From Aphrocallistes beatrix (Eukaryota > Porifera > Hexactinellida > Sceptrulophora > Aphrocallistidae): 64,000 nucleotides of DNA. Both the position numbers and the translations under genes were made by a program. The notes under the pieces are model-generated. The model had not been told where the DNA came from. It was given only the letters and a program-made list of their open reading frames with translations, and searched no databases. Below are positions 10,380 through 58,742 of the stretch, one piece after another (position 1 is the stretch's first letter; each line of letters begins with the position of its first letter). The DNA lies in contig OY725488.1 of the NCBI GenBank assembly GCA_963281255.1, positions 310,001 through 374,000 of the forward strand, given 5' to 3'.

Positions 10380-18763
<8,384 letters not shown>

Positions 18764-24700: not shown

Positions 24701-27700
24701 GAATTCGGAATAGCGGGGTGTCCAGAATTCTGAAATAAATTAATGTTATTGTCTATAGTGTATAATAACTACGTTTAACCATAAATTACATGAATAGAAT
24801 ATTAATTCATTCTGAGTTCCACTATATAAAGGTTTTTAAATTCCCGGCTAGATCCCGGTAAATTTACGCGATCCCGGCAATAACCGGAATCCCGGTAAAA
24901 TAGCCAAATCCCGGCAAAACCGGGATTCAACCGGGATTCCCGGTCGATCCCTATCAGCAGGTAACTGACCTTACAATTTTAGTTGTTTTTACCGTTTCTG
25001 CTATCTCCCAACAGCCGAGATCCTACCCCCAGACAGACGCATACTGTCGCTACCTAACAACCACAGATCCTGACTTCTGTGTTCCATCCAGTCACTCCAA
25101 AGTTGAATTACTCAAACTGCCCAGCCAACTCCGGACATACACGGCCAATCTTGACCCAGGGCTTTCCTCAACAGTAAACGATAGGTAACTTAGACCAAAT
25201 CTCCTCACCTTATGCGTTAAGATATGTTACCCTTGCCTTATACGCATGTATTATATCCTAGAGAATACCAGACACTAACCAATGATCATTATCTCCAATT
25301 GACTGACATATCCTCACTCTCACCTTCTTCCAACCCACTGGTCGACAACTTCACATATACTTCTTGGGTCTTTGTACAAGACACAGATGTCAACTATGAG
25401 TACATATTCAGCATCAATAGTGGCTCCAATCGATACCTTGCATTCACGATTGCCAAATCCAACCGTTTTGAGGTGTACTATCGAAGTACTAATACAAACG
25501 TTCAAGTTTCAAGGCAAATTGTGAGAATGAATTTTAATGTGGATGGATTTATATTCAAAGATACCTGGCATTTCATCTCTGTCACCTTCTCCTATCCTGA
25601 TGTCCGTGTTAGCATTGACTGTATTCAACTCTCATTGGCTACGGTGGTGTACTTTGATGGAAGCAACAACAAACAGAAAGACCAGAGCAGCCTCGTAATG
25701 CCATTTCCATTCGCAGGCTTCACACCTTCTCAAGTGGTTAATAACATGATCCCTACCCTTGAGTGACTAGTGAATATCTATTTTTATTCATTACATTTGT
25801 TTAGACTTCCTATGTGTTTACAAGAGAGGGGAGGTCTATCTACACAACCTACGGCCGTTCTGTTCTCACCTCCTTCCATCGCCCTCTCCTCAGCTCGCAA
25901 CAGATATGTTGTCTAGCTTCCTGTGGTCACTTATTCGATGCAACCACTTCCAATGGCGTTGTAAAGCAGTTCAATGGTGTGACTCGTACCCTCACTCTCT
26001 CCAGCACTGCTCCCCTCTCTGCCCACTCCAGCATAACCAGAGGGTTTACATACCGCAACCAGGACCAGGACCTGAGTACTTCCTCCGACGAAACTATTGC
26101 TTTCCAGGTTTCTATTGAATAACCAAGCGACTATTTTATGTAGTTTACCGTTTCTGGGAAGTTACGCATGCATTCCTTACTTAGGCTTACGATGGGGTCT
26201 GTTTTGGGCCAATTCTGCATGTTCCACTCTTGATCGATGTTTCCAACTTCAACCCTCCAATACTCTTCCTCAATGGCACTTCTCAGCAGAATATTTCTGT
26301 GGAACTGAGAGAGACTCCCACAGTCCCGCGGGACCCCATTCCTCTCACCACCCCCCTCAGCACCGTGACGGATGCAGACACCACGTCCCCTCGCCTCACG
26401 AATATCACGGTCACCCTCCGCGGGGCGTTGGACATCTCCGAGCAGATCAATTTCCAGGGGACTGTGTTCCCATCCACGATATCTCGCACTCGACTTAGCT
26501 TCACTGAGATTGCTCTCCTAGCGCTGGCGTCTCCCTCGGCTGCTGACTTTCTCCAAATTCTCAATAGCATCAGATACTCGAACGACGAGCAGGAGCCAAC
26601 TCCCGGGGTTAGGACGGTTGAATTCCGCATCTCAGATGATCTTTTCACCAGCTTGTCCATCACCTACGTCGACGTTATCGAAATTAACGACGTCCCCACC
26701 CTCTACCTCAACTCCAGCAGAATTCCAGGCCCGATTGAGGCCAGCTACACACAGGGGGCTCTTCCTGTACTCTTCATATTTGGCGCCAGTATTTCTGATC
26801 CTGATAGTAGCATCGTCGCGGCGGTTATCACAATTCAGGTTTTTGACGATGGAGATGAGATTATTTCTGTCAGCCAGAGAGAGGCAGAGAGTGCAGGGAT
26901 CAACTCAACGACGATGACTCGCAGAGAGAGCACTGGTCTGTTCATTACTTTACCTTTACTATCTACTACTATGCTCTATATTTGATGGTGTGTCTTGCTT
27001 ATCCTCGTAGGGACTTTCCAAGTGCTGACCTTGCAAGGCGACACGAGCACCGCTGTTTTTACTCGTGTGTTGCAATCTGTTTCGTACATTCACACTGGAC
27101 GCGGGACTGGCTCTTCGAATGGAACCAGAGAGGTCTCCATCTACGTGGTTGACTCAAGAGGAGGCCAGAGTGAGACGAGACTAGCATTCATCACTCTCTT
27201 TGTGAAAACCTTGATTGACTACTTTTTGAACTTTCCAAACGATACCATCCTCTTCAACACAACATTCTGCGAGTCCTCGCCCCCAATTCCAATCGTGGGA
27301 AACGTTCTCTTCTCGACGGCTGAGAGCGTCCCCACCACCATCTCAGAGCTGAGGCTGCGCATCAACGAGCCGCTCATTGATGACGACATGCTCCGAATCG
27401 ATTCGACGGAGCTGGACGAAGTGCTCTCCCTCGAAATCAACACCGCCCAGAAGTTCATTATTGTGTCAGGCATTTCCAGTCAATTCGAATATGAGAATCT
27501 CTCAAGTAAGTCTGCCTATCATACAATACAAGGGATACATTTGATTGCAACTTTAATTCGAACGCTAGGATATCACAAAATTCATTTTGTATTTAAGTTT
27601 TCATTCAATTCCTTGGTTCGCAGACACTTTTAAATCCAGCAAGCAATTCGTCTTCTCAAATTTTTCGTTGAATCTTTCAATCCTTCAATAATTGTTCAGG

Positions 27701-30700
27701 GATTTATTCAGAGCTCGTGACGCTTCTCTAGGACTATGATTTAGTCCAACTGTGTTCATTCCATGTAATATATTCAGTCTCTATGAAGGAATTTATACGA
27801 TTTTGTATGCATTTGCACACACTAGACTGCAACATATATAGAGACCGGATTGAATGTGTGCGTCTCTTCTAGAACTGATGTCCTATGAGAATCCTGAATC
27901 CCCTGTCAGCGAACCGGCTATCTTGGAGCGTCTCATTCAGTGGTCAGTCAACGACGTGAACCCTGACACGATATTCTTCGGGATTACTCACGTGTTTATT
28001 CTGCTGAAGAACGACCACACTCCCTCCATACTCAACTTGAACCCCATCCCCGTCCTTGAGAACATAACTGCACCCTCCCTCATCTACACATTCCAAGGGC
28101 AGGACTTGGATACCGGGATTGATGGAGAGTTCTATTTCCTTTTGCAAGAGACGGACTCCACTAATGTATTCTCCTTAGAGTCTGATACTGGCAATTTGTA
28201 TGTCATCGGAAGTTTGGATCATGAAACCCAAAATACCTACAACATTAGATTGACCATTAGAGACAATGGTAAGCTGTAGCCACTGCTGAGGCTGAGTTAG
28301 GATTGGGCGCGTACTTATTCTATTTTTAGGTACCACGGTGTGTGAGGGGCCTGGACCGCTGCAGACAGTGTATGACGTCACTATCGCGGTTCAAGACATC
28401 AATGACAACCCGCCTGTTTTTAACGCGCCATTTAGCGCCAGTTTCGAGGAGGGAAAAACCGGGTTTATCACATCGCCTAATATCACGGACGCGGATTCTG
28501 GAATTAATGCCATGTTCACCTTACAAATAGTGTCGGGTAACAAAATCGTCTTCTCCATTCTCAACGGCCGCAGCATCCAGGCGAACATGGAGCTAGACTT
28601 CGAGACGCAGACCTCCTACACACTCCTCCTGGAGGCCACCGACCAGGGCTCGCCTCCTCTCTCCTCGCGAATGAACTACACAATCGACGTCAAGAACATC
28701 AATGACATGCCTCCTGTATTTATAGTCCCGCCCGCGCCCAACTCTCAGCTGGCCTTCATCCCGGAGGATTTCGCGCTTGGCGATGCACTGCCATTCACGC
28801 TGAGTGCTACTGATGCGGACGCTCCGCCTTTTGATGAGGTTAGGTTTTATTTCGCGACTAATGTGCCTGTCTCTGCACAGAATCACTTCTCGATTGAACC
28901 TGCGTCAGGACTTATCAGAGTCACAGCTGAGTTGGATCGTGAGGCTATTCCTACCTTCAGTTTTGATGTACACGCTTTCGATGGGACTTTCAACACTACT
29001 GGGACAGTAGAGGTGATTTTACAGGACGTTGATGACAATCCCCCTGTCTTCCTTCCTCCCTTCCAGTTCTCCATTGCAGAAAACGCGACTAATGACACCA
29101 TCATTGGGACTGTTCGAATCTCCGACAGAGATATTCCACCTAACGACGATGCAATGTTCAGATTATTTGATAGTCAGCTTCCTTTCAGATTAAGAGGAGT
29201 CGGGACACAGAGTGCAGAGTTGCTCGTGTCTGGAATGCTAGACTTCGAAACACAGTCCAGCTACAGCATCGCCATTCTTGCCTTAGACGATGCTGGTAGA
29301 ATGTAAGTCTAATCACACACTCGATTCGCCGTATTATACCGTATCTGTGTACGTACGAGTATAATCTCTGTTTTATGGTTGTGTAGAGTGAATGAGACGT
29401 ACGTGATAAAGCTCTTGAACGTGGATGACACCGCTCCCATCGTCAACCTGGACTTCTCCACACGTACGATAGTGGAGAGTACAACGCTTCCGCTCACCTC
29501 TGACATATTCGCGCGGGCTGAGGTGTTTGATCCCGACTTCTTCCCTGTCAATTTCCTCAGGATAGGAATCGCAGATGCTTCTGGCGATTTCTTCACTTCT
29601 CCTCGCTGCTCTTTCGCTCAACTTGTCCCATCTTGTGCGGGAAACACAGCTTTCTCAGCTGATTGCCAGGCTAATTGTGGGTTCTACATTGACTTGCAAC
29701 AAACATCCCCACAGTTAGTTGTGGACTTAAACACCTCGCTTGGCATACTGGAGATATCGAGTCCTCAGGGTAACATATAGCTCTATCCAATTGCTCGAAT
29801 TTACTCGATAATCCAGCAACTTATTGAATTTTTTATAAACTTGTTTCCAGGCCTCTCCGTTGAGAACATGAGTCTCGTGCTCCAAGCTGTCAACTTCGTG
29901 GATGTGCGGGATGAGCCGGGAGAAATCGACATCCTCATTCTAGTTCAGGCAGGAGACCAGTATCAGATCGGTCCAATCTCCCATTTCAATCTGATCATTG
30001 ACCCGATCAATGACAACCCTCCGGCGCTCGATTTGAGCGCCAGCGAGACCGCTACTCCTCACCGGCTAGGCACTGCCCAGTACGTAGAGGGGTCTGGACC
30101 TCAAACCTTCTCCACGGACCCGTCGATTGCAGACGCAGATCTCAATCTCCCCTTCGAGGTAGTGCTTAGGTCTAACTACGTGCACTGTACTAATTGCTGT
30201 TGCGCTGATTGACTGCTGATTTGGATAGGTTGTGTCGGTGACGGGTCTTCTCACGGGGCCTAACGTGCTAGCTCCGATGGTCCGACACTCAGTTTCATTC
30301 AACCGGACTGCTGCGCTGGATTTTTTGCGCGAATACCCCTTCCATGACCCGAGAGATGAACCTGGCCTCTGCGCCATGGCAGAGGACTCACAGATGAATA
30401 TCAGTGTCACGATAAACGACAATCAGTTTGACAGCAATCTGGCGGTGATATCTGTACTCGTGCTCTGTGTGAACGACCCTCCCATTCTAGACCTGGACTC
30501 TCTACTCCCGGGGATAAATAGCGATGTTGCATTCATTGAAGACACATTCGTAGTTCCTCTCTATAACACTTCAAGAGTGAATCTGACAGACTCTGATTCG
30601 AGAATCTTCTACAACGCCACAGTACGACTCAGGAACCGTTTGGATGTGCCAGAATATCTCGTTTTCTACCACTCCGGTTATGGACTCAATTATACCATAT

Positions 30701-33700: not shown

Positions 33701-36700
33701 CATGTTTACACAGCACAGGATCCTGACAAGTTCCCCTACTTGACCTATCTCCTAGAACCGCAAGGGATTCCCTTTGCAGTCGCATCTGATAACGGCACAG
33801 TTTACCTGCGGTCAGGCCTGGACTACGAGGCGACGCAGAACTACACTCTTCTAATTCGAGTGAATGACATGGGCAGCCAGACCGGAGTGCAGAGTGACAG
33901 TCTAATCATCAGAGTCCAGATACAAGACGCGAATGACAATTGCCCCACGTTCACTAACCTTCCTCTGTTCTCCCCTCTAGAAGTATGCCAATCCAACTTT
34001 AACTTTAGTCTTGCATGTCAAGTTCTATCTATATTTCTGATTATAGGTCTACGAGAACATCCCCGTCTCCACGAGTGTGTACCGCGTGACGGCAGCTGAT
34101 GGGGACTTGGATGATACGAGTGGGAATAACCAGCTGAGTTTTAGTATCTCACCTCTCGGAGATGGGGTTCTGAGTCATTTTACGATCGACCCTTATACCG
34201 GAGTTGTTTCTACAAATCACACAATCGACAGAGAGATAAGGCCGTATTATTCACTGACAATCACCGTGCAAGACAACCCCACCAGTCCTCTGGATACCCC
34301 TTGTGTCGAATCGGTTTCCATTAACATCAGAGTTCTAGACCTCAACGATAACGACCCGATATGTCGATTCAATGAGACTATTATTCCGGTTTTGGAGGAC
34401 CTGTTCAACTCTAGCGATGTATTTACTTCTTCTGTTCTCATCAGCGATCTCTCAAACTCGTGTCTGGATATTGATCTTGGTACGGAACCTGTTGATATAC
34501 TCTGTTTTCCTCTAACCGATTTTAATAATCTGGTTTTTTAGATTTGAACGGATTACTTCAGTACAGAATCCTCTCTGGGAATATCGCATCTGCTTTCTAT
34601 TTGGATAGTACGACAGGAGAGTTGATGCAGAGAGCATTTTTCGACAGAGAGACAGTTGACAGATACGATCTAGAAATTGAAGTTAGCGACAGTGGACTAA
34701 ATGTCACGAGAACTACCGATGTTAGACTAACAGTCTTGATAATGGATCTTAATGACAATACACCTGAAATATCTCCCCTATCTGCTGAGGGGGAAGTGAT
34801 TGAGACAACAACTGTCGACACTGCCTTGCTTACCTTCCTTGTGCGAGACTTGGATAGTTCGCAGAATGCACAGCTGACTTTAGAAGTCAACAGCTCAGTG
34901 TTCGGAGTCAGACCCAACAATGTATCAGGTAGCTTCGTAGTTTACGAAATACTGTTTTTACAAAGTAACTGAAGTATTCGATTATTTCAGATTTGATTGG
35001 AATTCGTTTGTAGCGAACACTGCAGTTCAGATTGAGTTCTACCTGAACCAGCCTCTTGACTACGAGACAACGAGACAGTACATGGTGGTGCTAAGCGTAT
35101 TGGACCAGGGATCCGTACCTCGATCAACCTCTGCCTTGATTGAAATCGCCGTGACTGACGCGAATGACAACCCCACGAATGTAAATGTCGACCCGACACC
35201 TCTCCACTACTGTGAAGACCAGAGCCCAGCTCCCATTTTCAGAGGAAACATCAGTGATCTCGACACCCTCGATTATTACGGACTCTCCGTGCGTGTTATA
35301 AATGGCTCAGCTTACGACGTTTTAGATGTAGACCTAACTGGGATAGCAGCACTCAAGTACTTCAACCCACTCGCTCGCATTCTTTCTGTAATCGGATCTC
35401 TGCCTCCTTACGTCTACCAGAACATCCTCTCGCTTGTACTGTATGAAAACACAGCAAAGGAACTTCTCGGAGACCAGAGATATTTTGATATCTACATTGA
35501 ATCTGACATCATTCCCAATCTTCCTATTACAATGCCTAACTCGACGAACAATACAACCAACTCTTCCATCCTTCAAGACACAGAGCTAGCCACAATCTTC
35601 CTAAACCTAGAATCGAATGCAAGTTACTTTCTAAGATTACAAAGTGCATCAACTAAGATTTAACAATAATCTCCTCCAGGTACTCAGTAGAATAGACGTT
35701 TCTACTAGTCTCAACCTTAACTGCGTAAATGACGCTCCTGAACTCTTGTCCGACGCTCTCCTCCAAGCGATTGAGGAGGATTCAGTGACGATTCTGTACA
35801 ATGTATGGACCTTGATTGGAACTGTCGCGACTGACGATCAGAAAGATGGCTGTGCTTCCGATGCAGCTGAGCTGCCAGTGGTGGGACTCGCATTTGTGTC
35901 TGTGCCTAACGAGCATCAGGTGACAGTAGCTTATAGCTACGAATTCCTTGTTACCTACCCCTTATTCATTAACGGGGTGAGGGTAATCTTGAAGTTACAC
36001 GCAAACGAAACAGTGGAGGTGTCTGTAGAGAGAGTAGGTGAGTCATGTTCTTGTCAACATACATATTGATACATATACTTTAGTATATAAGCATTTGTGT
36101 TTGTAGAAATGGTCAATCCATTCTCTTTGATAATGAGGCCAATTCTCAACGGCAGAGAGAGAGTGATTGATTGCAAGTTTACTATTAGAAGTCCAACCTC
36201 CGAAGGCATTACACTAATCAGCGGGATCACCTTTACACTCATGATTGATGATGTCCTCTATCCAACCATATCAATTGACGGAGATGAGAATACAAACTAC
36301 TCTTTCAGTGTTCCTCAATTGATACCTTACATCCACCCAATTCTAACGTACACTGGTGTGGTTACCATAGTGAGCGATGCCGTTTCTGCCACTGCCAATG
36401 TACAATTTACTCCAGTGCAATCTCCTCTCTGCGACCAAGCTTCGATATCAGAAACTAGCGCCATTCAAATACCTAGATTATCCGCAATTCAGGTGACACC
36501 TGCGACTAATTTCTTTGGGGAAATAAGAATTGGGTTTAAAGCTTATGATGGAGATGAATTTAACATGGTGGGATCCAACTGGTGTTCAGGTTACGATACC
36601 ACGTTACCTGTCACTGTGTCAGAATGCCCAGTCGCTATCCAACCCGCGAAATATAGCGAAAATTCCCGAGACATCATTCTCAATGTTAGCCCTGTCAACG

Positions 36701-45700: not shown

Positions 45701-48700
45701 GTGTAAATGGGGAGGTTGTTTTCCTTCAGAACTCGACTTCTCTCTTATCCGTAGATCCAGACACTGGTGTTATCACTGTGTCAGGGCGACTTGACAGGGA
45801 AGACACGGACCTAATCAGTGTGACATTGTACGTGTTTGATATGGGTGTACCCTCGTTAACTGCGACAACCACGTTTTCCCTTACGCTCCTTGACATAAAT
45901 GATAACCCACCGATCTTTATTGAGTCGCCTATTTATCGCATTTTCCCTGAGAACACAATGACTAACTCGATCTTACTCAATCTTTCCATTCTCACCACAG
46001 ATGCAGACGTGGGTGGCTCTTCCACTCACTCATACAGCTTACAATCTGTTTCGAGCAGATTTGATGTTTCACAGACATTCGAGATCATGAGTGACCTGCT
46101 CGTTCTCCGCGGTCTATTCGACTTTGAGTCGGATGTCTATTCCTACGAGTTCAGAATATGTGCGAATGATGGAGTGAATACAGATTGCGTATCAGCTGTG
46201 ATAAACATTACTGACATTAACGATAACGCGCCTGAATTTAATTTCCCTGTCTACAACTTCAACATTAGTGAGAACAATCCTATGGTGACATTTATAGGTC
46301 TTGTATCCGCCATAGATGCGGACTCAGGTATAAATAGGAAAATCGACTACTCCCTGATGCAGAATGAGACTAGATTCAGCATAACCTCCAATGGGACTAT
46401 TTGGAGTAATTTCATCTTTGATCGTGAAGCTACCCCGACGGTTAATTTCGTGGTTACTGCTACAGATCGAGGGTCTCCTCGAATGAGTGATTCCGCAACT
46501 GTGATTATTGACATTCTAGATGTTATTGATGTTACTCCACGGTTTGTTGGTGGGCCATTTAACCTACCAATACCTGAGAATATCAACACCTCGTCTAGTA
46601 TTTTTTCCTTCATGATAATCGATCCAGACATCGAACCTCCTCCAATCTTAACACTCAACGGATTTGGTAGTGAAGACTTTAGATTAAGCGGCAATACACT
46701 TTATGCAGACTCGCCTTTAGATCGAGATGAAGGGCAGTCGTTATATCAGTTAACGATTGTTGCGAACGATTCCGCCGGGCTAACTGCCATGGAAACACTC
46801 ACTATTGCTCTCATGGACGTAAATGATAACGCTGCCGAATTTGAAGAAGACGTCTACGGGTTTATGATCATAGAGGAGAGAGCTCCTATCTTTAACTTGG
46901 GGCGGGTTACTGCTGTCGATATAGATTTTGGGGACAATGCCAAGTTTCAATACTTTATCAAAGAAGGTAAGCAGCTGTTCGGCAGGATATTTTCACGAAG
47001 TACGGATTGTGTGTTCAGTGGCACCTCTGGAAATGTGTTTGGATTCAGTATCAACCGAGAAAATGGCTCTCTTTCTCTCAATTCCACTGTCGACTATGAG
47101 TCAGTTCATTTTTTCTCACTTTCTGTCTGCACCTCCAACGTGGCTCCTCCCTTCCAAGAGAGATGCGTGTGTGTCATTATATCCGTGCAGAATATCAATG
47201 ATGTTCCTCCCGAGTTCTTTCCAGACGAAATCTCCATGAATATTTCGGAAACAGCTGGAACCTTGGCCGACACCTCGAGATTGGTCACAACTACCTCATT
47301 CACAGATCTAGATGGGTTCGCCAGCGATTCCTATTCTATGGAGGTCAGGCACAGTTATGGTTCGCAGTTTCCTTTTGCACTCTCCCCGGCTAACACTTCT
47401 CTAAAAGAGCCTGATGGAAGCATTCAAATTACTCGCACTATCCTAACTGCTTCAAATGTTGACAGAGAAGTTAGGGATTCTTACTTTTTCCAGGTGTGTG
47501 TTTTTGATGGTACATTTACTGACTGTGCACAAATTTCTCTGACAATTCTCGATGTCAACGACAATCCTCCCATATTTGGCCTTGCCTTTATCTACCTTTC
47601 AGTGCAAGAGCATGTGCCTGTTGGATTCCAAATAGACATTATAAATGCGACAGATGCTGATATCAATAGAAACTCTGTAATTGAATATCGTCTTGTTAAC
47701 GGAACGGAGTATTTCTCCATCCATCCTTCCACTGGAGTACTGAGCGTAGCTGCTGACATAGACCGCGATCCTAATAACAATACGGTCACGGTGCTTGTGC
47801 AGGCATCAAACCTAGTGCCAGGGGTGCCTGTAGATTTCGGTGTGATCAGTGCGGTTGTCTATATAGACATACGAGACATTAACGATAATGTTCCTCAGTA
47901 TCGCGGTCCACTTAGCGCTTCCCTTCGTGAGGATGTGTTAGACCAAATCATATTTAGCGTCACAGCTACAGATGCTGATATCGGGGAGAATGCTCGGCTC
48001 AGCTTTACCATCATCAGAGATCCCGATGACTCCTTCACAGTTGACATGCATGGCGTTGTTAGGAACCGGCGGTACCTAGATAGAGATGTCCGAACGGGTG
48101 GGAAGGTGAACTACTACTTTACTCTTCTCGTTGCAGACAATGGCATTTATCCGTCCTCTCTTAACGTATCATTCAACTTCAGCGTTACTGCTCTGAACGT
48201 GAATGATCACGTACCTTCTATAGAGGGAGTTCGTTCATTCGATATTGTTGAGAATATGCCTCCTAATTTCTGTTTGGGAATGCTTACTGTTGACGATTTG
48301 GACTTTCCTGATAATATTACAGTTGTAATAGAATTTGCTACAAATTCTGAGTTCTTCTCAATCAATCAATCGAGTGGAGAGATATGCAGTCGGGTTTTAT
48401 TTGATAGAGAATCAAGGTCAGCATATTCTGTAGAAATAATACTAATTGATTTGCAATCTCCTGTACTAAACACCACCGAAACAATCTCAGTGTCTATTGG
48501 AGATGAGGATGATAACCCTCCCTCATGGGTCTCTTCTTGTCCTATCTACGTGCAGGATTCCATAATGAGGTCTGGCTCAAGGGTTGCAACTCTTGATGCA
48601 AACGATCCGGATCTTACACCGTCGTTGATTTATCGCATTGTTGGTTCAGATTTTGGGTTTTCGCTAATTGGAAGCGATCTCTACCCTCCATCAGGGGCTG

Positions 48701-51700
48701 ATGTCAGTGACACTTTAAAGTATTGGCTGGCATTCTCTGTTCATGACAGCGTCCATGTTCCTGTTATCCTGGACTGCACCATTCTGGTGACTGACCAAAA
48801 CAGTTATGATCCTGTTCTCTCACCTTCTCAATACTCAGTCACGGTCATAGAGGACATTCCAGTCAATTACGTTCTTTTAACGGTTTCTGCAGTAGACCTT
48901 GATGAAGGGATCAATGGGAACATCTCCTTCGAGCTGTTAAACGGTGATGATGTTTTCAGTTTGGACAACGACGGTGAGAAAAAAACTTTAGATTTGAATT
49001 TTTCATATATCTTCATTGCGTTACTTGATGCTTTTAATTTGCTTAGGTATTTCAAGCGCCGTGCTACGTCTGGATGTCCCACTCAACTTTGATAATCAAT
49101 CTGAGTACAATCTCACGTTCAGAGCTTTCGACATGGGTCGTATCAGGCGATTCTCTGACTCGGGGAGCATCACGGTCAACATAGACGATCTAGCTGATCA
49201 TTCTCCAGTCTTCCTACAGCCTTACTACGCTGTAACCATTTCTGAGAGCACTTTACAAGTCACGCAAGTCTTGAAGGTCTGATAGCTATGAGTTATTTTA
49301 ATAGCGTTTATTTTGACTTACGACTGTGTTACTAATTAGGTTGAGGCTACTGATGAAGACTCGGGAGATGCCGGCAGGATCATCTACTCACTCCAGGAAA
49401 CAGACGCTTTCTTCATCACCCCGATCAATGGCGAGATATTCACTCAAAGTCTGCTCGACAGAGAAGCTAGATCCAACTACTCCTTCGCGGCATTTGCCAC
49501 AGACCAAGGATCTCCTCCTCAAACTTCCTCGGTATCAGTTGTCATCACTATCTCAGATGTCGATGATAACCGTCCGACTATCTACATCTCTAATTCGATG
49601 CAGAACTTCTCTGAAGGAGGTCCTCTAGTTACCATTGTTCCACAAAATGATCAGGTTGTGATTACAGACGATGACAATATGACCATATATGGTGTTTCCC
49701 AGGTCAGGATCACATTGAAACCAACTTCAGGGGGTGACAAGTTCCCCCTGCCTGGCGGGTGAGTAGTGAAAAACAGACTAAATTATATTTTCAAATATTA
49801 ATTAATTAATTATATATTTATTGTTTTGTGTCTAGATATTGTGACTATTCTTTACACGCCAATTTCAACGACATCAACGGCTTCACTCTCTGCGGCGGTT
49901 CTATCCTGCCGACCTCGTCTGTGGAGAGGGCGGGCGGTGTCAATGAGATCACCACACCGATCACTCTGTTCACGCTGCCAGGACAGAATAGCGCACACAT
50001 ATCGTACTACCTCCTCACTGAGCTAGAGTCTCTGTCTAGCTATTCACTCTTCGTTTGGTTCTCTTTATCCGGATTCACTGACCCAGTCTACGTGCTTCAG
50101 CAAGAGGGATACTTTTCAATAAAGTTGAATAAGATCTCTAATTCAGACTACTTGATCGTGCTGGATAACCCGGATGGTAGTCTATCTTACACTTGCACTT
50201 CTTGCAATTTGGTCGGTTCAGGCTGGCATATGTTTGGTTTGAGTAGAACTGATTCGGAACTCTGGATTAGCCTCGACCATCTCACAGATAGAATCCCTGG
50301 GTCGTTTATAATCACTCTCAATACAAGTCTTCCTATCCTTTTTGGTAGGAGCCTTGAAGGTTCCATTAACAAACCTGTGTTTTCTAAACAAACCTATTCG
50401 CAGGGCCTGCTAGATTTTGTCACATGTGTTATTGCTTGTGGTGAATTTCTTCAATACAATTCTTCACTTGGTAATATTACTGTCATCCGGAACTATAAAG
50501 AACGATCTCTTCTAATTCGTATTACCAATACCTTCTCACATTCACCAATCGACACATATAGGCTACTAGAAGATAGCTTAAGGTTCGTCTTCTACTCAAA
50601 CGTCCTAGATGAGCCCAGTTCTTACCCCAGAGACGTTGCTTACCAGGTGCTGGACTCAGGAGGCTACGGCCCAGAATTTGAAACGCGACTTAATCCAATC
50701 TTCCTTAATGATAAAGAGCCAGTTGTTGACCTCAATGGAGGTGATGATGGGGTTAACTTTGCGACCATCTTCGTGGAAAATTCTCCCGGCGTTTCCATAA
50801 TACCCCCAGATGCGTTTATTCTAGATCAGGATAGTGGCTCGTTTCCTTTAACTGCTATTAGCATCACCTTGACTAACCCTATCGACGCTGGCGATGAGAG
50901 ACTGTTCACTATGAATCTCCCCCCTGGCTATGTCTCCGTTATCACAGGTAATGTTCTCGAAGTGACATCTCTAATGGACAGGTCTTTCGGACAATGGACG
51001 AGTGAAATATTGCAGGGTAATGTTATATTCTACATAAACAATTTCATCGAACCAACGAATGGGACTCGAAACATAAGTTTAACAGCACTCGAACAAACTA
51101 ATGGATTCACATTCACGGCTACTGCTTTTATATACGTCGATATTCTTCATATAAATGACGAACCAGTCATCGACCTTGCCCCATCTGACCCTTCAACAAT
51201 TAATACTGTTGTTATGTATGCAGAAGGAGATATGGACATATTTCTCCTGAACACAGATATTTCCATCACCGATTCGGACAACGTAAATCTTCAATCGGCA
51301 TTCATCTGGCTAACCCCGACACCAGATGGAATACTCGAGTATATCAACATCACTAATGATGGATCTGGAACTTTCGTTATTACCCGAAATGCGACTTTAA
51401 TCAGCATAACAGGAAATGCAACGAATGTAAGTTACTCGAGCTTACTCCAAAACTTGGTCTACACCAACCTCAACGAGGAGAATCCGGATAATTCGACACG
51501 AATGGTTTCAATTACGGTCTATGATACGGATCAACAGCCGAGCGTTACTGCTCACATCTTCATCGACTTCGAAGCAATCAATGACGCCCCAGTCGTTATT
51601 TTGAATAACGATAACAATAATCCGTTTGGCTATGATACTGTCTTCGTGGAAGAAACTGGTTGTGTATCCATGGTAGGGACAGCGTCTAATATTATTGATG

Positions 51701-54700
51701 TAGATAGCAACAATCTCATGAGTATGGCTGTGTCTTTCAGAGAAGGTAGAATCGATATTGACGAGTTTCTAAATGCAACATTCACTAATGGACTTTCAAA
51801 AGTGAGTGACAATGACGGCGGAATAATCCTCACCGGTATCAGGAGTGTGTCTCAATATAATGACGTACTGCGTTCACTGGAGTACTGCAACTTCGGAGAT
51901 GAACCGAATAATGACACGATTCGCAACGTGACCATATCTGTCACAGATGAAGAGGGAGGCGTGAGTGATGTGGTTATCTCAGAAGTTATGGTAGAACGAA
52001 TTAACGACAATCCGAATGTGACCGTGGGGTCAAGAATGAATGCTAGCTACGGTTCTTCTTCAGAATTTGTCTTCGGATCACCAATCATTGTAAACGATGT
52101 CGACAGTATCTTTTATTTCCGCGCCCTCATCTATATTTTCTATCCCTATGATGGTAAAGACTTTGAGATTATCACTTTCGAAGGAGATTTAGGCGAAAGT
52201 ATAATTTCCATAGGTCCAAATGACATCACTTCAGGACCATTCCAAGGTGCCATATTTTATAATGTGACATTCCTAATTCGGGTTATGAAAGAAACGGTGG
52301 AAGAAGTTATTGCGCGAATCAAGTACAGCAATACTGCTCCCGATCCCACGACTAACCAAACAAGGACCATCTGCGTCAGTGTGTTGGACATTGAGGGTGC
52401 TCTGAGTGGGTTGTCCTGCATCGGCATCAGCATAAATGAGCCGAATGTGTTCGCTCCCGAATTTCTTAACGCGAGACAAACTCTGACCATCAATGAAGGC
52501 ATGCCGATCTCCTCCGTCTTGCACACAGCTACTGCACGGGACTTAGACGGAGATCTAGACCTTACATTCTCTATTGTGTCCGTGTCATCTGTACCCACCA
52601 ATGCTCCCAAATCCGGTCTCTTTACAATCGATAGCTCTGCAAACATTATTCTGCTCCAGACATTAGATGCGGAGTCAGCTGATATGTATGAGCTTGAACT
52701 TCAGGTGACTGATAGTGGCGTACCATCAAAAACTGGACAAGCTCGTCGAACTTTTATGATAGATGATATCAATGATAATAGACCGGTTTTTGCAGCACCA
52801 CTCGCTTGTAGCACTAGTTGCTCGTTCTGCATCGATGAACAAGCCTTGTTTTCGGCATCTTTAGTTGCAACTGACGGTGACAAGACCTCTCCCAACAATG
52901 ATATCGTCGATTATAACGTTGATTCAATGTTTTTCGACATTAACACAGTGGGTGGTCCAAAACTCGAGAATATACTGCCTTTAGATTTTGAAAGTACTCC
53001 CACCATATCCCTGACAGTCACTGCTACTGATGGAGGAGTTAGTCCCGGATCATTGAACGGAGAAATCAGTTTGACAATCTGTCTCGCCAATCTAGATGAT
53101 GAAATGCCAACCTCGATTCAGCGTACAAACGGTGTTTACGTCAAAGGCTCAGATCCAGTTCTAGTTGACCAATTCTTAGAAGTAACGGACGTTGACAGTG
53201 CAAACTTGGACCAAGCTATGGTATCATTCACAAACCCATCCAGTCCATCTTCTTCTAATCTGTTAAACTGTACTGAATTTTGCTTCGATCGGAGACTCGA
53301 AATGTGTCAAGCATCCCTCACACTCTACGACTTGCTTAGCTTAGGTGTGATTGAGAATAACAATCCTGCTAGTGGATTATTTGAAGAACCAGATCCATTC
53401 GCTCCTGCTTCTTGCCCTTATATCAGAATGCTTGGACAGAATTCTGCCGGTTCAAGAGATTTGAGTCTGACTGCTTTTAGCCGAGTAAGCGAAAATGATC
53501 TCCCGTCCCTTGTAGGGGAGCAAGTGACTCTCCTTGCGGAACTTAGCGATTTGGCAGGCGAGGGTTACCTGGTTTCGATCAATAATGATTCAGAGCGCTA
53601 CCTCTCCATTTGGGTTCAAAAGAGGAGACTGTCAGTCTACTACACAGCTAATACGATTCGGTACCGATGGCGGGCGACTGGTCTCAGCCTTGCAGGCAGA
53701 TCCTTGTTTTCTCTAATAGTGATCATAGACCCCACACGAGGTTCAGGTCAGGGTGCAGTTCGCGTATATATAGACTGTAATGAAATCATTGGCTCCTTTC
53801 GCCAGGAAGGTACCTTGTTCACTCTCCAAAACAGAGATTTGGCGATAGGGAAAAGGTTTCCTATTAACAGAGCAGAAAATAGGCTATCAGCCGGCATTCG
53901 AAACCTTTTCATAATCCCTGCCATTCTGTCTGACGAGACAAGAAATTGTTTCTGCCCTTGCCATGAATTCATAGACATCCGTAGAGGACTGTTGGCGAGT
54001 ACTGTTGATGTGAGCTACTCCACGAACGCAGTAATACTAGAGAACAGGGGAAATTTAACAGAGTTTGTAACTTCTATTAGAGGGCTACAATTCGGCAGCT
54101 TTTTTAATAATCCCGTGACTCAGTTTAATACATTGTTCAATCTCCGTTCGTTTAATATCTTTTTGAGAGATATTTCCGGGAACTCAGCTACAGGAGTCCT
54201 CCTAGTGTATGTAGCCAACTCGCTCCTCCCGCTTACCCTAGACCTGGACGACAGCACCCCAGGAAACAACGCCCTAGCTTCTTTCACAGAAGATACAACT
54301 GCTGTTGCCTTTTTCCAGAATATGGGGATCCAATTCTTAGAGGGTACCAGTGCCCGCCCTCCCGTACAGATACTTACCCTCACTCTGTTGAATCCGCTGG
54401 ACGGATCTCGGGAGTATTTGTCTGCTCAGAATTACTTAAATATAGTGGCCAGCGTTGAGGAGCATAGAATCGTGTTCACAGGACCTGGGGCTCCGATTCA
54501 TTTTCAGAATGCACTTCAAACTGTGACCTATATTAATGAGGAAGATGTCCCAGATACGACCACGAGGCAGATCCAAGCCAGCTTCACAAGTGTTAATAAC
54601 CGCAACAGTGCACCCTCCACTGTTTTCCTATCACTCACAGAAGCGAATGACTGTCCTCAAATAGATCTCAATAATAACACGCAATCTTCTATTAGTGTTT

Positions 54701-57700
54701 CCTTCACTGAGGGTTCTCCCTCAATCCTCCTCTTCCCAAGCCTGTCCATCACTGATAGTGATGGGAGCTTTATCCTGCAAGCTACCGTGGATATTTCCAA
54801 TTCCACTTATATACAGGGAGAAGACGTTCTCTCATTCGATTCTTCCCTCGCTCCTCTAGTGAACGCTACTCTTTCAGGAGACCAGAGAACAATACAAACA
54901 ACTCTCACCACAAACTTGAATAATTATGAAACCTTCCTTCGTTCGATTTCCTACCGGAGCACCTCCAATCCTCTTCTGAATGCAAATGGTCAGGTTGTTA
55001 CTGGAAATGACAAGAACATCATTCTGAGAGTAACTGACTCTTCAGGCTCCAACACGAACTGTCCTGATGGTCTTGTTAGTGTTTTGTTTATTCCGATTGA
55101 TGCCTTCCCCATCATTCTCTTGCCGCGCACTACCATCAACTTCACTGAGGAAAGTAACAACACAGTTCCCATTCTGTGGGATCTGACGCTCTCCGACACA
55201 GATTCTGAGGTTTTGGGTGAGTAATTTATTGTTACCACGAGTAGTGTCATAGTACATTCATCATCTTGTATATTATAAAATTTTCATATAACTCTTTACA
55301 TTTTGATAGGCAACAACCGAGTGATCATCCGACTGAGTTGGATAGGAGATCCAGGAAAGGAGCACATCACCCTCACAACGAATGGCATCGCCCAGCATGC
55401 AACCAGCTTTGTATTGACAGGAGATGTCGTGATATCTTCAGCTCAGTCCAGCTTACGTGGTGCCACCTACATCAACACAGCTGAGGAGCCCAGCATCTCT
55501 AACAGAAGCATTGAGGTGTCTCTCTACTCAGGGGACGGGACTCTCCTCTCCAGGGAGTACCGGGGTATCTGGATACGCTACATCAATGACCATGCTCCGG
55601 ATGGGTTGACTCGCTATGACTTCTCTGTTCCAGAAGAACTTGAAATCAACTCAATTGCTGCTCAGATCATTCCGGTAGACAACGATAAAGACATCAACCC
55701 GAGCTTCACGTTTAGTATAAGCGGAAGTGTGTCTATTCCTTTCTTGTTAAACGGCACAACTGGAGAGTTGATTGTCATTTCGCGAATCAGTTTTGAACTT
55801 ATGGCAAGCTACCAGTTTGAGGTGAGTGACTGATTTAACTTTGTACGCAATTATTTTAAGATCTAACTTGAGTATCTATCAAATACGTGTAGGTTGTAAT
55901 TAGTGATGGCGGAATCGATGGTATGAATGAGCTCACTGCTGTGGTGATGATTGTAATTGCCATACAAGACTTGCCTGAAAAACCTGTGTTGGACCTGAGT
56001 CCTTCGGACAGTTCGACTCTTGACCAGTCCATCCCTACCTTCTTCGTTGTGGGTAGAAGCAGTGTGCAACTGTTTAGCGAGGCTGTTGCCATAACTGATG
56101 AAGATATTGGAGATTCAATCGCTGAAGTTAGAATTAAGTTTTCCAACAGACCTAATGGTGTACAGGAAGGCCTTCTCAAGAATTCGAACTCTCTGCTCTC
56201 CACTAGTGACATTTTCACAATTCCTCTCACTGGCACGCTTGATTATTCGGGTGAACTTGCGACATTGTTCTATTTCAACTCTCTCACGTCGCCTGATTCA
56301 CAATCTCGGATGGTGGAGGTCACAGCAGTAGACTCCACTGGAGAGGAGAGTGAAGCTGCGAGATTGTTGATTCAGTTCCTCACCATACCTTCATTCCCCA
56401 TGTCGGATTATACTCTGTTTGTTTATGAGAACAGTCTCCTGCCCGATGCGATCGTGGTATCAGCATTTGTAGGAGACGGTTCATTCACTGGTTTTATCTA
56501 TGGGGTGTCTGGCCCTGGATCGGACCACTTTAGTATATCTGACACCGGAAATGTGTCTTTGATAATGGAGCTAGACAGAGAAGGTAGTCTTGGACACACA
56601 TTCCCCATTACAGTCTCGGTAAGTTTACTCAATTCATACTCCATTTCTTCGTACAACACGTGTTGTTATGTCATTCTCACAGGCTACAGATCCACGTAGT
56701 CAACCAAGAACCGGAAATACAACTCTGATTATAAGAATTCTGGATCGTAACGACAGGGCTCCATCCATTTCAGGGATAAATGAAACATTTAACTTACGAA
56801 GAGAAACTGAAGTACCTCCTTTCCCTCCATGTAAGTTATCAATTTTCCAATACCTACTTTCTGCTTAGTAATACCGTTTATGTCAACTAAACTCTCTAGC
56901 AACTGAGGTTACTGACTTGGACCTGTTTAACCTAACTCAGATATCAGTCCGTGTCATTGGCCTGCACCCATTGGAACAGAACCCGTTCACTTACCTCACA
57001 TGTGAAGATGACCTTGTGGCAGTCATAAAACACCGGTTAGTTATTCAGCATGAACGATACGTGGGAACAATTGGCTTGTTATTGTTTTTATTTATTCACT
57101 CCGCTTTAGCTCATGCGGCCTGATGGATATTCCAGATGACCTCCTCCTGAATTCAGTTATCTCAAGCGACTCGAATTCAAGTACTCTTTCAGGAAACAGT
57201 ATTTTACACATCCGTCAAACTTCTCACGTCTATCTTAACCGCACTTCGGTTTTCAACGGACCCTATAATAATATGACGATCGCTCTGTTTGTACGCTGGA
57301 TAGGCACTGAGAATGGATATATATTCGCTCTCACAGATGGTGGCGGTTATAAGAGGTAGAGTCATTTAATATTAATCTTGCTGATGTGTACACACCATAC
57401 CATAATTATAACCTTGCTACTAGATTTGCAGCTTTATATTATGATGTGGAGAGACAACAGATCAGTCTCTATTTCACCGAGGACAATTTTGATCCAGATG
57501 AGGGGAGGATACGGGTCTTGTGTCCTGTTGATCTCACTGACGGTCGCTGGCACCACCTCGCCCTTGTGATTGTATTCCCAAGTGTCTACTTCTATGTTGA
57601 TGGAAGTCGATTGAATTGCATCATTTATACTGGACCAGCTGGAGATCTTAATCACACACTAGAAAACTCAATTGAAGGTAAGTTGAAGTAACGGCTGGTT

Positions 57701-58453
57701 ACCAACTCCTCTCTTCTGTTGTGGAGAGAGGAGATGACACCGAGCCTACACGATCCGCTTTAGCAAGCTGCTATCCGCTGGTAGTAGGCTGTTCACCTGT
57801 GGATACATTTATTGTTAAATCGGGCATTTATGATCACATTATTGTTCTGCACAGGTCATCCTATATCTGGGCCTAATCCCACTGACAGTTACGTCACATT
57901 CACGCTGGGAGCAAGGATCCAGAATACTCATTGGACGCAGAGAGGAGAATTTGACATTTCGACCTTCATTGCATTGGATTTTGCACTCAAAGCTGAATTT
58001 ATTCAATGTCTCCTTTCTTGTATGGAGCGGTTCAAGTTAGGACTCGATTCCTCTGAATTTGTACAGGTATGAATTATTGATTATTGTAGCACTTCTCTAA
58101 ATTTGATGATATCTTCCCTACAGAGTTTCAACCAGTCATCAAGGGAATATGTGATTGAAGGAGACTTTTCTCCTGAGTATGCTGCGCAGATCATACGAGC
58201 CATCCTCTACTTCAACCAAGCTGACCAGCCTAACGTCCAGTATCTACGACTATCGGTACATGATGGTATATTCTCCACAGATGGGGATTTGACTGTTAAC
58301 GTCGCTGCTATGCGCAGACGACGATCAATGGAGTCCATCTTTGAGCCGATCCAAGCAACCGGCAATTGGCACCCAAGCAGCGCATGTTCCCTCTCTCCAC
58401 TTTTTATCACTCTGCTATTTAGCCTCATTCTCCACTTACTATTTCTACTTTGA
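21784..58453 (+). CDS. Giant secreted or surface protein: cadherin and calsyntenin-like repeats with LamG modules
   Basis: Multi-exon gene. The ATG at 21784 starts a signal peptide (LILYSFVFTLLF then SQTSVLSQ); the ATG at 21721 is less likely. Early exons by hand: 21784-22021, 22098-22370, 22436-22620, 22682-22901, 22975-23198, 23448-23551, 23611-23893, 24172-24389, 25015-25184, 25262 on. Later exons: one ending at 40518, then 44478-48973, 49047-49276, 49340-49758, 49836-55216, 55310 on; the last ends at 58453. More than 50 beta-sandwich repeats end in LDxNDNxPxF-type linkers. Many are classical cadherin repeats (DxD, DRE); others have Y-x-N..P..R..(V/I)xD like calsyntenin. Four LamG domains occur near 25.3, 50.1, 53.6 and 57.3 kb. 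The tail has an RRRR site and a hydrophobic end with no cytoplasmic domain. The estimated size is 9,000-9,500 residues. The likely role is calcium-dependent adhesion or matrix formation. Splicing around 25.7 kb is unresolved. Confidence 0.85.
23199..23447 (+). other. Cadherin intron with hairpin and G-rich strand
   Basis: Intron of 249 bp. It contains an imperfect hairpin at 23247-23293 (TTAGCGAA pairing with TTCGCTAA, plus GGACCAG with CTGGTCC) and a C-run tract at about 23303-23333, whose minus strand has four or more G-runs. Confidence 0.6.
24501..24953. mobile_element. 453-bp hAT-type MITE in a cadherin intron
   Basis: The element starts TAGTGATCGACCGGGA and ends with the inverted TCCCGGTCGATCCCTA (one mismatch). 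It is flanked on both sides by the identical 8-bp duplication TCAGCAGG (24493-24500 and 24954-24961), which is diagnostic of hAT superfamily insertion. Inner subterminal regions carry repeated GCCGGGA-type motifs. It lies in the intron 24390-25014 and has no coding capacity. Confidence 0.92.
25262..25960 (+). other. LamG module 1 of the giant protein
   Basis: FTYTSWVFVQDTDVNYEYIF followed by SNRYLAFTIAKSNRFEVYYR and DTWHFISVTFSYPDVRVSID forms a LamG/concanavalin-like sandwich. After a short intron it continues to CCLASCGHLFDA near 25908-25935. A partial repeat with the Y-x-N pattern follows. Confidence 0.7.
40519..44477 (+). other. 3,959-bp cadherin intron holding an antisense gene
   Basis: The donor AG/GTTTGT at 40518/40519 and acceptor TTCACAG/GTTC at 44477/44478 restore a cadherin reading frame across the junction: GPESDR, then FRINRETGELSV, a normal EC-repeat motif. 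This shows that the cadherin gene is continuous and that the coiled-coil gene lies inside one intron. Confidence 0.85.
40668..44036 (-). CDS. Large coiled-coil protein, intronless, nested in the cadherin gene
   Basis: A single frame of 1122 residues. Residues 1 to about 175 are Ser-rich and apparently disordered. From about 178 to 1030 the sequence is nearly continuous heptad coiled coil, rich in Glu, Lys, Gln and Leu. The last ~90 residues are again Ser/Thr-rich and non-helical (SRGSSTSLRSAGAGTSK near 1030). No motor, kinase, membrane or zinc motif is visible. General composition is like rootletin, golgins, centrosomal coiled coils and myosin tails, but coiled coils match each other by composition, so I do not name a family. 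A cytoskeletal, centrosomal or Golgi scaffold is possible. The gene lies wholly in the cadherin intron 40519-44477, opposite to its host, with about 440 bp of intron upstream that must include its promoter. Confidence 0.85.
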   Translation of the reverse strand: MESASEEKLRGIRSNPKIEIAKDSSEELFKTMLVSIKSESNREEFVSREEVVSQNSLMSIQSPSAPEQENIRRSLSVVSTHATQSEIFSALAHSNPIKQSRSYNPQLSIPLSASLSALDCPAHLKPLQNFGSTDSSIAGDISNRSSIETPLHDEPVPLRLTEFGREEMMAPKNISLGWSDVEEIRRELNERTRERDRLQNELKYKDEKVSSLRRQMEDIDEKNMTDNEQVKQLKGQVRKLERECEVGRQEKNSAEEGQQWLQSQLDQMMKERIKLQQELAASRGMVLAKGAELETAKAELSKVRTECSNLRTQSLKERAQIVTTLEGVEEEVLEKDSRLEELNSQMFSFSEEKDQLCQQVNELREILAEQQIEKEDLESQLQQHQDLLAETRQNLEGVERKKQELKRELSQVNAQFETKDVELSEIYKARDGLQVQKAAADRLLVNKDNILGGLGQEKHLLDRQLEANRQEISQLNTQLVAINGELVECKKRAYEAELEEETKMRVMQRAIQERDFAEDELRGVKQDFNALLGEKASNEKKLQKELEAKEKKFRNLQYAMKDVAEKMTDMEERLKDKSEREESLIAELDAAKRESKQANIQLNKLQGDMGPLKTELGGVYEEAMRAKESRGEEVRALQEERGKLVLQLNQAQLEYGKNLAGLKQEMRQAETNREGEVHQLTADQQQLKEKLFRTEETLARAASLNAQLEQEVRNKMGRADLEKARSLEKLEKRYTLLQQQNEDLKATFENNKKEMETMQVNLNNVQGEKSQILRALDQAKRESNRKTEEIEQVFSQRSYESETLKSQLNTMQAGYAQLTEHAHALERALTEKEATLTRLSGQAELVLSHKQVEDEEMQQRMLEMTTRVRQSEKERDSAFYETGLLRERVKRIEADLRASFNDQTSLQNRKDSQELKITNLEEKYNAAVESKKEIESRYKHIENERSRFQSHVGQLENQNSKRNEQANFLQDRLNMAQSQITDMEAHSRKLEEMLSSSEKRHQSELQSLRGMYSTLQDTSQPRIDYQLSRGSSTSLRSAGAGTSKNVAALQNCLISLKEDMGKLQSQMYKQAENVNTSYTLSRKFENNMSDGASKIQPKTSTPKSMSQDERDTRNYNSFTDYN
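49960..50460 (+). other. LamG module 2 of the giant protein
   Basis: SYSLFVWFSLSGFTDPVYVL, EGYFSIKLNKISNSDYLIVL and GSGWHMFGLSRTDSELWISL form a LamG-like fold. It ends FVTCVIACGEFLQYN (near 50417-50460), the same cysteine motif as the other modules, then a Y-x-N..P..R-type repeat. Confidence 0.75.
53470..53980 (+). other. LamG module 3 of the giant protein
   Basis: VTLLAELSDLAGEGYLVSIN, ERYLSIWVQKRRLSVYYTAN and AVRVYIDCNEIIGSFRQEG form a LamG-like fold. It ends RNCFCPCHEFIDI (near 53941-53980) with the shared cysteine motif, followed by another cadherin-like repeat. Confidence 0.75.
57123..58072 (+). other. LamG module 4 of the giant protein
   Basis: MTIALFVRWIGTENGYIFAL, then across introns FAALYYDVERQQISLYFTED, GRWHHLALVIVFPSVYFYVD and FTLGARIQN form a LamG domain. 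It ends FIQCLLSCMERFKLG (near 57998-58040) with the shared cysteine motif, then the final repeat with LYFNQADQPNVQYLRLSVHD. Confidence 0.8.
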
Positions 58454-58742
58454 ATCTGTCGAAATTTCCTTAGCACTTATATATCCTATTAGGTCTTGAC
58501 TAGACTTTTCTCTTAGTTTTACTCATAGCCTTTTATGGGGTTTTTTTCATTCTCTATTTTTACTTTATTAACATTTTTGTTTTCCTTCGAAGTATCCCAC
58601 TAACCGCATAATATCATAATAGAGAAAGTGATTTTAATATAAAGTCAGGAGTTTGCTTTATTTTACCTTGAATCGAAATCATTAACTTCGAGTCAAACTA
58701 ATTATTTCTACCCGGTTGTCTTTAGTGAATAGTGTTTGTAGA

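Follow-up and report, generated by a model that had tools for sequence, protein, structure and literature searches.

Calsyntenins are synaptic proteins of nerve cells, about 950 aa long, that contain one unit of cadherin repeats, LamG, CxxxC and Y-x-N..P..R repeats. The locus described here raises the question whether a giant cadherin may carry such a unit several times over, and whether the likeness is one of kinship. The window, the whole stretch of DNA that was analysed, is 64,000 nucleotides long, and the genome searched comprises 100.5 Mb in 28 contigs. According to the original prediction, made from the window, four distant LamG domains are each followed by a similar cysteine motif and a cadherin-like repeat, in the order known from calsyntenins.

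Gene model and repeat types

The dynamic-programming model joins 50 exons on the forward strand, from the ATG at 21784 to the TGA at 58451-58453, into one spliced gene that encodes 9,233 aa with no internal stops (Table 1). Exons 1, 10, 11, 16, 39 and 50 were edited by hand, and in places exons may have been missed or edges set wrongly. The 49 introns, with a median length of 71 bases, all had GT-AG ends when counted before the last exon edit, and the single donor that was shifted later is GT too. Words of the CCCGG type recur in the intron between exons 8 and 9 (window 24500-24950), and few exon edges of unit M1 are less certain than those close to this CCCGG-rich intron. The 19-residue hydropathy of the whole protein peaks in the C-terminal segment (2.34, at aa 9215). 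A cytoplasmic tail is absent from the gene model, which has 0 residues beyond this hydrophobic segment, and the C-terminus would be a GPI signal or a tail-less anchor.

The protein contains 35 EC repeats when scanned with an in-house cadherin profile. Pfam, used independently, recognised 10 cadherin stretches in one of the two largest frames (44458-49089; Pfam Cadherin, 350 bits over the 10) and 2 in the other. A second repeat type of about 135 aa, YxN, was found in 30 stretches, or 27 domains once split halves had been merged by hand, so that the predicted number of more than 50 repeats is borne out. The order of repeats is YxN2-EC2-M1-YxN3-EC4-E1-YxN2-EC9-YxN7-EC16-M2-YxN4-EC2-M3-YxN3-EC1-YxN1-EC1-M4-C-terminus, and the map includes stretches with no assigned repeat, e.g. 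aa 3443-3775.

Table 1. Features of the giant cadherin gene in the window, and its relative on contig C16.
Feature	Position	Strand	Basis
Giant cadherin gene, 50 exons, 9,233 aa	21784..58453	+	dynamic programming and manual fixes
Signal-peptide-like N-terminus, MSQHRIHLILYSFVFTLLFSQTSVLS	21784..21861	+	in-frame ATG in exon 1; judged by eye
Unit M1: YxN N-half, C-x10-C, LamG (about 25168-25906), CLASCGH, YxN C-half	24222..26241	+	Laminin_G_3; clean YxN profile
E1: YxN-like domain, first after 4-EC array, C-x8-C-x9-C-x3-C, no LamG; candidate empty site	29442..29999	+	
YxN array without LamG, 7 repeats	35151..40033	+	YxN profile, 49-106 bits
Largest EC array, 16 repeats, split by 3,959-bp intron	40109..49579	+	Pfam Cadherin and in-house EC profile
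Unit M2: YxN N-half, C-x16-CGG, LamG-type domain (about 49936-50420), CVIACGE, YxN C-half	49559..50709	+	split YxN match
YxN array after M2, 4 repeats	50722..52440	+	YxN profile, 61-96 bits
Unit M3: YxN N-half, Cys pair, divergent LamG-type domain (about 53404-53943), CFCPCHE, degenerate YxN C-half	53092..54213	+	hhalign; clean YxN profile
Unit M4 (C-terminal): YxN N-half, C-x12-CG, LamG (about 57180-58003), CLLSCME, YxN C-half	56746..58303	+	Laminin_G_3; clean YxN profile
C-terminus: MRRRRS basic (furin-like) site, then hydrophobic segment up to last residue	58310..58450	+	hydropathy
Second giant cadherin with M5, 4,203-aa open frame	C16:2098300-2110908	-	open frame; gene ends outside model

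Repeat 2 of the YxN array after M2 gave a confident fold model in AlphaFold2 (pLDDT 85.9, pTM 0.83). A fold search with the plain-repeat model returned only a general Ig/cohesin-like arrangement, calsyntenin not being among the matches listed, and the YxN profile retrieved no PDB sequence at E 10. Twelve YxN repeats searched against Pfam matched CLSTN_C in two cases (best E 0.011) and five other families in one case each, CLSTN_C being the only Pfam family matched by more than one of the 12; against NCBIfam and PHROGs the matches were scattered and weak, with one member each. YxN repeats are present in bacterial giant proteins: at a threshold of E 0.01 tblastn retrieved 11 records from plasmids, the best with E 2e-14, and a 'tandem-95 repeat' giant of Variovorax paradoxus (QRF62046.1, CP063167.1) contains three YxN repeats at 78-82 bits. 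The two giants have these repeats in common; unlike the window protein, that of Variovorax is nearly free of Cys (1 in the 3,161 aa examined) and is matched by the LamG units in their tail only. The M5 unit, described below, matched one plasmid record (E 0.1), in its YxN part only. In the same genome a single open frame of 5,789 aa on C11 (839501-852907, minus strand; L010-L011) showed 18 YxN stretches and no LamG in the 4,469 aa read; some of its segments presumably resemble proprotein-convertase P domains. A 900-aa frame on C20 (2733884-2735488, plus strand; L042, L048), by its matches a further YxN protein, contains no LamG-CxxxC unit in the parts examined.

The LamG units and their place in the YxN repeat

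The four predicted cysteine motifs were all found in coding frames at the places claimed, within this one spliced plus-strand gene: CCLASCGHLF at 25907, CVIAC of TCVIACGEFL at 50425, CFCPC of NCFCPCHEFI at 53947, and CLLSC of QCLLSCMERF at 58007. Each lies between a LamG-type segment and the C-half of a YxN repeat. The order of LamG, cysteine motif and repeat stands in 4/4 units, but LamG exceeds the Laminin_G_3 cut-off of Pfam (27.6 bits) in M4 only (30.3 bits). M1 remains under it (24.9 bits, E 2.6e-5), and M2 and M3 gave no LamG family match in Pfam. Compared by hhalign with M1/M4/M5, M3 aligns both in LamG and in the tail (87.5%, E 3.6e-6) and M2 in the tail only (80.7%, E 1.3e-5); a match found with M5 as the query touches the end of the M2 LamG (E 0.006). 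The pattern Y.N...P..R...D, judged by eye, is complete in M2 and M4 (2/4), whereas M1 is without P and R and M3 without Y.N. It was originally read as the mark of a cadherin-like repeat; it marks instead the YxN repeat, which is present in bacterial giants too.

M5 is a fifth LamG unit, located on contig C16 in another giant cadherin from this genome, with the order YxN3-EC12-YxN(LamG)-YxN4-EC7-YxN(four Cys)-... This protein resembles that of the window in its EC and YxN arrays and in having LamG in YxN, and differs in having one LamG unit in its frame. Other frames retrieved in these searches were set aside: the weak matches of the M5 search on C8 and C17 are other proteins, two C20 frames from that search have a YxN match only and no LamG-CxxxC unit in the stretches examined, and a 4,712-aa frame on C6 with a weak LamG match is another type of protein, which we take to be fibrocystin-like.

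LamG had been thought simply to precede the repeat, but it appears to be inserted in one loop of a YxN repeat, always the first YxN after an EC array, and between Cys pairs. This reading of the sequences is supported by the two halves of the repeat. The clean YxN profile was made from 12 plain repeats, with no LamG unit among them, and on it the part before LamG falls at positions 11-58 and the part after LamG at positions 55-134 in 5/5 units. M2 was split at hmm 1-52 and 48-131 by the first YxN profile, which was iterated and may have taken up unit halves in its training, and at 11-50 and 65-120 by the clean profile. With a YxN profile free of any unit, the C-halves of all five units scored better than 1,000/1,000 shuffles. 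The N-halves did so in 3/5 units, with 10/1,000 shuffles as good for each of M4 and M5. The clean profile gave 5.6 bits (N-half) and 16.4 bits (C-half) in M1, and 17.1 and 12.9 bits in M3, with 0/1000 shuffles as good in any of the four cases; in M4 the C-half was likewise matched by 0/1000 shuffles. When scanned within the whole unit, the N-halves reached only 2.0 bits in M1, -0.6 in M4 and -1.0 in M5. Placed on the plain-repeat model, the putative insertion point falls in the loop that joins strands 42-50 and 58-62. AlphaFold2 gave no usable model of the whole M5 unit (pLDDT 45). An alignment of plain repeats around LamG was also tried and rejected, the N-halves being misplaced in it.

In 5/5 units LamG is preceded by a Cys pair and followed by CxxxC. 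CxxxC was found in 7/10 YxN domains directly behind an EC array and in 0/29 other YxN domains, a count made by hand after the pattern had been noticed. The seven comprise the five LamG units and two sites without LamG, both candidate empty sites, in which four Cys stand close together at the putative insertion point. One is E1, in which the YxN C-half scores 3 bits only and the N-half is undetected; the other occupies aa 3360-3517 of the C16 frame.

Comparison with calsyntenin

With CLSTN1 as the query no calsyntenin ectodomain was found among the PDB sequences, and for this reason a single, provisional sequence of human CLSTN1 was used as the reference. Its identity was checked by Pfam alone, in which it matches CLSTN_C at 703 bits, cadherin at 58 bits and Laminin_G_3 at 29.8 bits. 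A whole-unit profile of M1-M5, calsyntenin left out, aligns with the reference CLSTN1 in a single colinear stretch that takes in LamG, CxxxC.E and YxN. The match scores 28.9 bits, which in a database as large as the PDB set corresponds to E 6.4e-6; none of 1,000 shuffles exceeds 2.7 bits. Like the gene and the repeat order, this colinear similarity is a direct result of calculation. Among 177,635 PDB sequences the top match of the same profile is NELL2 (21.9 bits), in LamG only, and the FAT-like C14 frame of the same genome scores 2.2 bits. The units and the reference CLSTN1 align in hhalign at 91.2% (E 1e-6, 217 columns), and M4 in BLASTP at 38.9 bits (24% of 266, E 2e-7 for a single comparison).

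Taken singly, the parts of the unit behave otherwise. The LamG part of the profile scores 18.8 bits on an EGF/LamG_3 frame of the same genome (L015) and 17.7 on CLSTN1. The tail part, from CxxxC on, scores 94.6 bits on the Variovorax giant and 5.4 on CLSTN1 (best shuffle 4.5). Even the whole profile has a higher total on Variovorax than on CLSTN1 (82.3 bits, best repeat 37.0, tail only). M4 alone gives 19.7 bits with CLSTN1, 20.1 with its paralogue M5 and, with a longer query, 20.6 with laminin alpha-2. An earlier whole-unit profile placed several YxN-only frames of the genome above CLSTN1 in summed score; in best-domain score these frames reached 24.7 bits against 25.9 for CLSTN1. Since the parts score CLSTN1 below L015 or Variovorax, the repeat is nearer to the bacterial type, and the link to calsyntenin lies in order, colinearity and cysteines. 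The predicted link, put to profile searches, therefore survives for the whole unit, which is colinear with CLSTN1, and not for LamG or tail singly, which are nearer to other LamG domains and to bacterial repeats. Nor is the Y.N..P..R repeat a hallmark of calsyntenins, the YxN repeat being general.

The N-half of the reference CLSTN1 is weak (12/1,000 shuffles as good), and the Cys pair before LamG is present. Both segments after its LamG match the profile of 12 plain repeats, at 9.8 and 15.3 bits, above the best of 1,000 shuffles for each (7.1 and 4.8 bits); consequently the C-terminal extracellular region of calsyntenin may be composed of two YxN domains. CLSTN_C itself has no match in M1-M4 in Pfam, and a scan of the whole genome gave nothing above the cut-off. 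Its best score in a large exon (49837-55215) is 18.5 bits against a cut-off of 27, on a repeat that is not behind a LamG. A calsyntenin gene was not found in the genome with CLSTN_C or the reference CLSTN1 in an exon-by-exon search, which missed M4 as well.

The window protein resembles calsyntenins and alcadeins (CLSTN1-3, CASY-1; for CLSTN1, the provisional reference) in having EC repeats, LamG between Cys pairs, CxxxC.E and YxN-type repeats, all in equal order. It differs in its 9,233 aa, about 35 EC repeats, four LamG units, long YxN arrays, lack of a cytoplasmic tail and CLSTN_C score under the cut-off, and its identification as a calsyntenin was rejected on these grounds. It probably shares the calsyntenin core and is no calsyntenin. 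PMC6224480 deals with tryptophan-acidic peptides of calsyntenin-1; no such kinesin-binding motif is possible in a tail of 0 residues past the C-terminal hydrophobic segment. In the available text of PMC9064300 a calsyntenin consists of two N-terminal cadherin domains, one LNS, a TM and a short cytoplasmic tail, no domain is named behind LNS, and the basic role of these proteins is given as unsettled. The word 'calsyntenin' occurs 0 times in the portions available of PMC4265756, PMC13245172 and PMC5968619. No account of the present architecture was found in a limited literature (titles and abstract openings) on calsyntenins in sponges, choanoflagellates, cnidarians and Nematostella/Trichoplax, on bacterial repeats and on sponge cadherins.

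Interpretation and genomic context

The best explanation, with a probability of roughly 0.6, is that the gene encodes a giant adhesion protein whose LamG-in-YxN unit is homologous to the calsyntenin core. The product would be a cell-surface or matrix adhesion protein of about 1 MDa, in which stiff EC arrays alternate with bacterial-type beta-sandwich YxN arrays. At several EC/YxN joints the first YxN would hold a LamG in one loop, with the Cys pair at the entry and CxxxC at the exit probably closed as disulphides, and this unit is most likely homologous to the calsyntenin core, EC-EC-YxN(LamG)-YxN-TM. Ca2+ would stiffen the EC arrays into a very long surface filament, from which the clamped LamG domains could project at fixed spacings as side heads that bind a ligand, be it of the laminin type, a glycan or a partner receptor. 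The C-terminus would anchor the protein, perhaps through GPI, with possible release at RRRR.

This homology is supported by the colinear match to CLSTN1 through LamG, CxxxC.E and YxN, by the position of the unit, which is in both cases the first YxN behind EC repeats, and by Cys pairs that flank LamG in M1-M5 as in the reference CLSTN1. The same three features make it unlikely that mobile LamG and YxN domains were joined separately here and in calsyntenin, with CxxxC convergent. Such independent shuffling would agree with the failure of the LamG or tail part alone to single out CLSTN1, with M4 matching laminin alpha-2 about as well as CLSTN1, and with the occurrence of YxN without LamG on C11 and in Variovorax and of LamG without YxN in other frames of the genome. 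It is improbable that the protein is a bacterial-type giant adhesin, its repeats of bacterial origin and its likeness to calsyntenin incidental. The YxN profile scores on three Variovorax repeats (78-82 bits), the tblastn E of 2e-14 and the 94.6 against 5.4 bits of the unit tail all point that way; however, the Variovorax stretch of 3,161 aa contains a single Cys and matches the unit in its tail only, plasmids match only the YxN of M5, and the introns, EC arrays and animal-type neighbour genes place the gene in an animal genome. Bacterial kinship of the plain YxN repeat is moreover compatible with the calsyntenin-core homology.

FAT and CELSR proteins have EGF and LamG domains near the membrane and a large cytoplasmic tail or 7TM. 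A protocadherin of this type with degenerate LamG would fit the giant size, the many EC repeats and the scores of the frame 44458-49089 with Cadherin_FAT4_N (59.5 bits, cut-off 35) and Cadherin_CELSR2_9th (34.7 bits, cut-off 36.8), but these two are models of single cadherin repeats. A regular expression for EGF-type Cys patterns found 0 in the 9,233 aa and 12 in the FAT-like C14 frame. The C14 cadherin shares EC arrays and LamG domains with the window gene and, unlike it, has EGF-type patterns and, by eye, TM and cytoplasmic tail; its LamGs are dissimilar to the units. With FAT-like LamGs at 2.2 bits on the unit profile and no cytoplasmic tail, the units were rejected as FAT/CELSR-type LamG, and this origin is scarcely credible.

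If the homology of the unit with the calsyntenin core is right, a family of synaptic proteins would need a new domain map, calsyntenin relatives would be found among the giant adhesins of an early-branching animal, and their repeats would be linked to bacterial giant proteins, a hint at a core common to a synapse protein and giant adhesion proteins. A testable anatomy is offered, with LNS within a beta-sandwich repeat and behind a four-Cys clamp, and the window gene and its C16 relative together provide five divergent copies of the calsyntenin-like core and two candidate empty sites for comparison. A further step is put forward only tentatively, the odds being against it: calsyntenin may have arisen by reduction to a single unit from an ancient class of giant adhesins of animals, in which bacterial-type YxN was joined with EC and one YxN gained a disulphide-clamped LamG at the cadherin boundary, calsyntenin keeping only EC-EC-YxN(LamG)-YxN-TM. 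On this view CLSTN_C would correspond to two YxN domains, of which the first is split by LNS, and, if the host is a sponge, animals without synapses would employ this same ligand-binding head several times in a row.

Other genes were noted in and around the locus. Smads are animal proteins, and the genome, which has five matches to Smad MH2, is taken on this ground to be that of an animal; its cadherin content, short introns and size would point to a sponge. Two of the five matches, exon-sized, are in the window (about 10566-13018, minus strand), and a stop interrupts the matched frame of one of them. Wnt gave no match at E 0.001 in the whole genome, though a search of this kind does not establish absence; PMC10280926 reports that Wnt is lacking from a glass sponge genome. 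An intronless antisense frame of 1,129 aa (window 40671-44057, minus strand) is wholly contained in the cadherin gene's intron of 3,959 bp. It is Glu/Leu-rich, heptad-like and of the coiled-coil type, with no Pfam match at E 0.001. Directly downstream of the cadherin gene, one open frame (window 58701-59711, plus strand) encodes a five-LIM protein, which we take to be PINCH-like.
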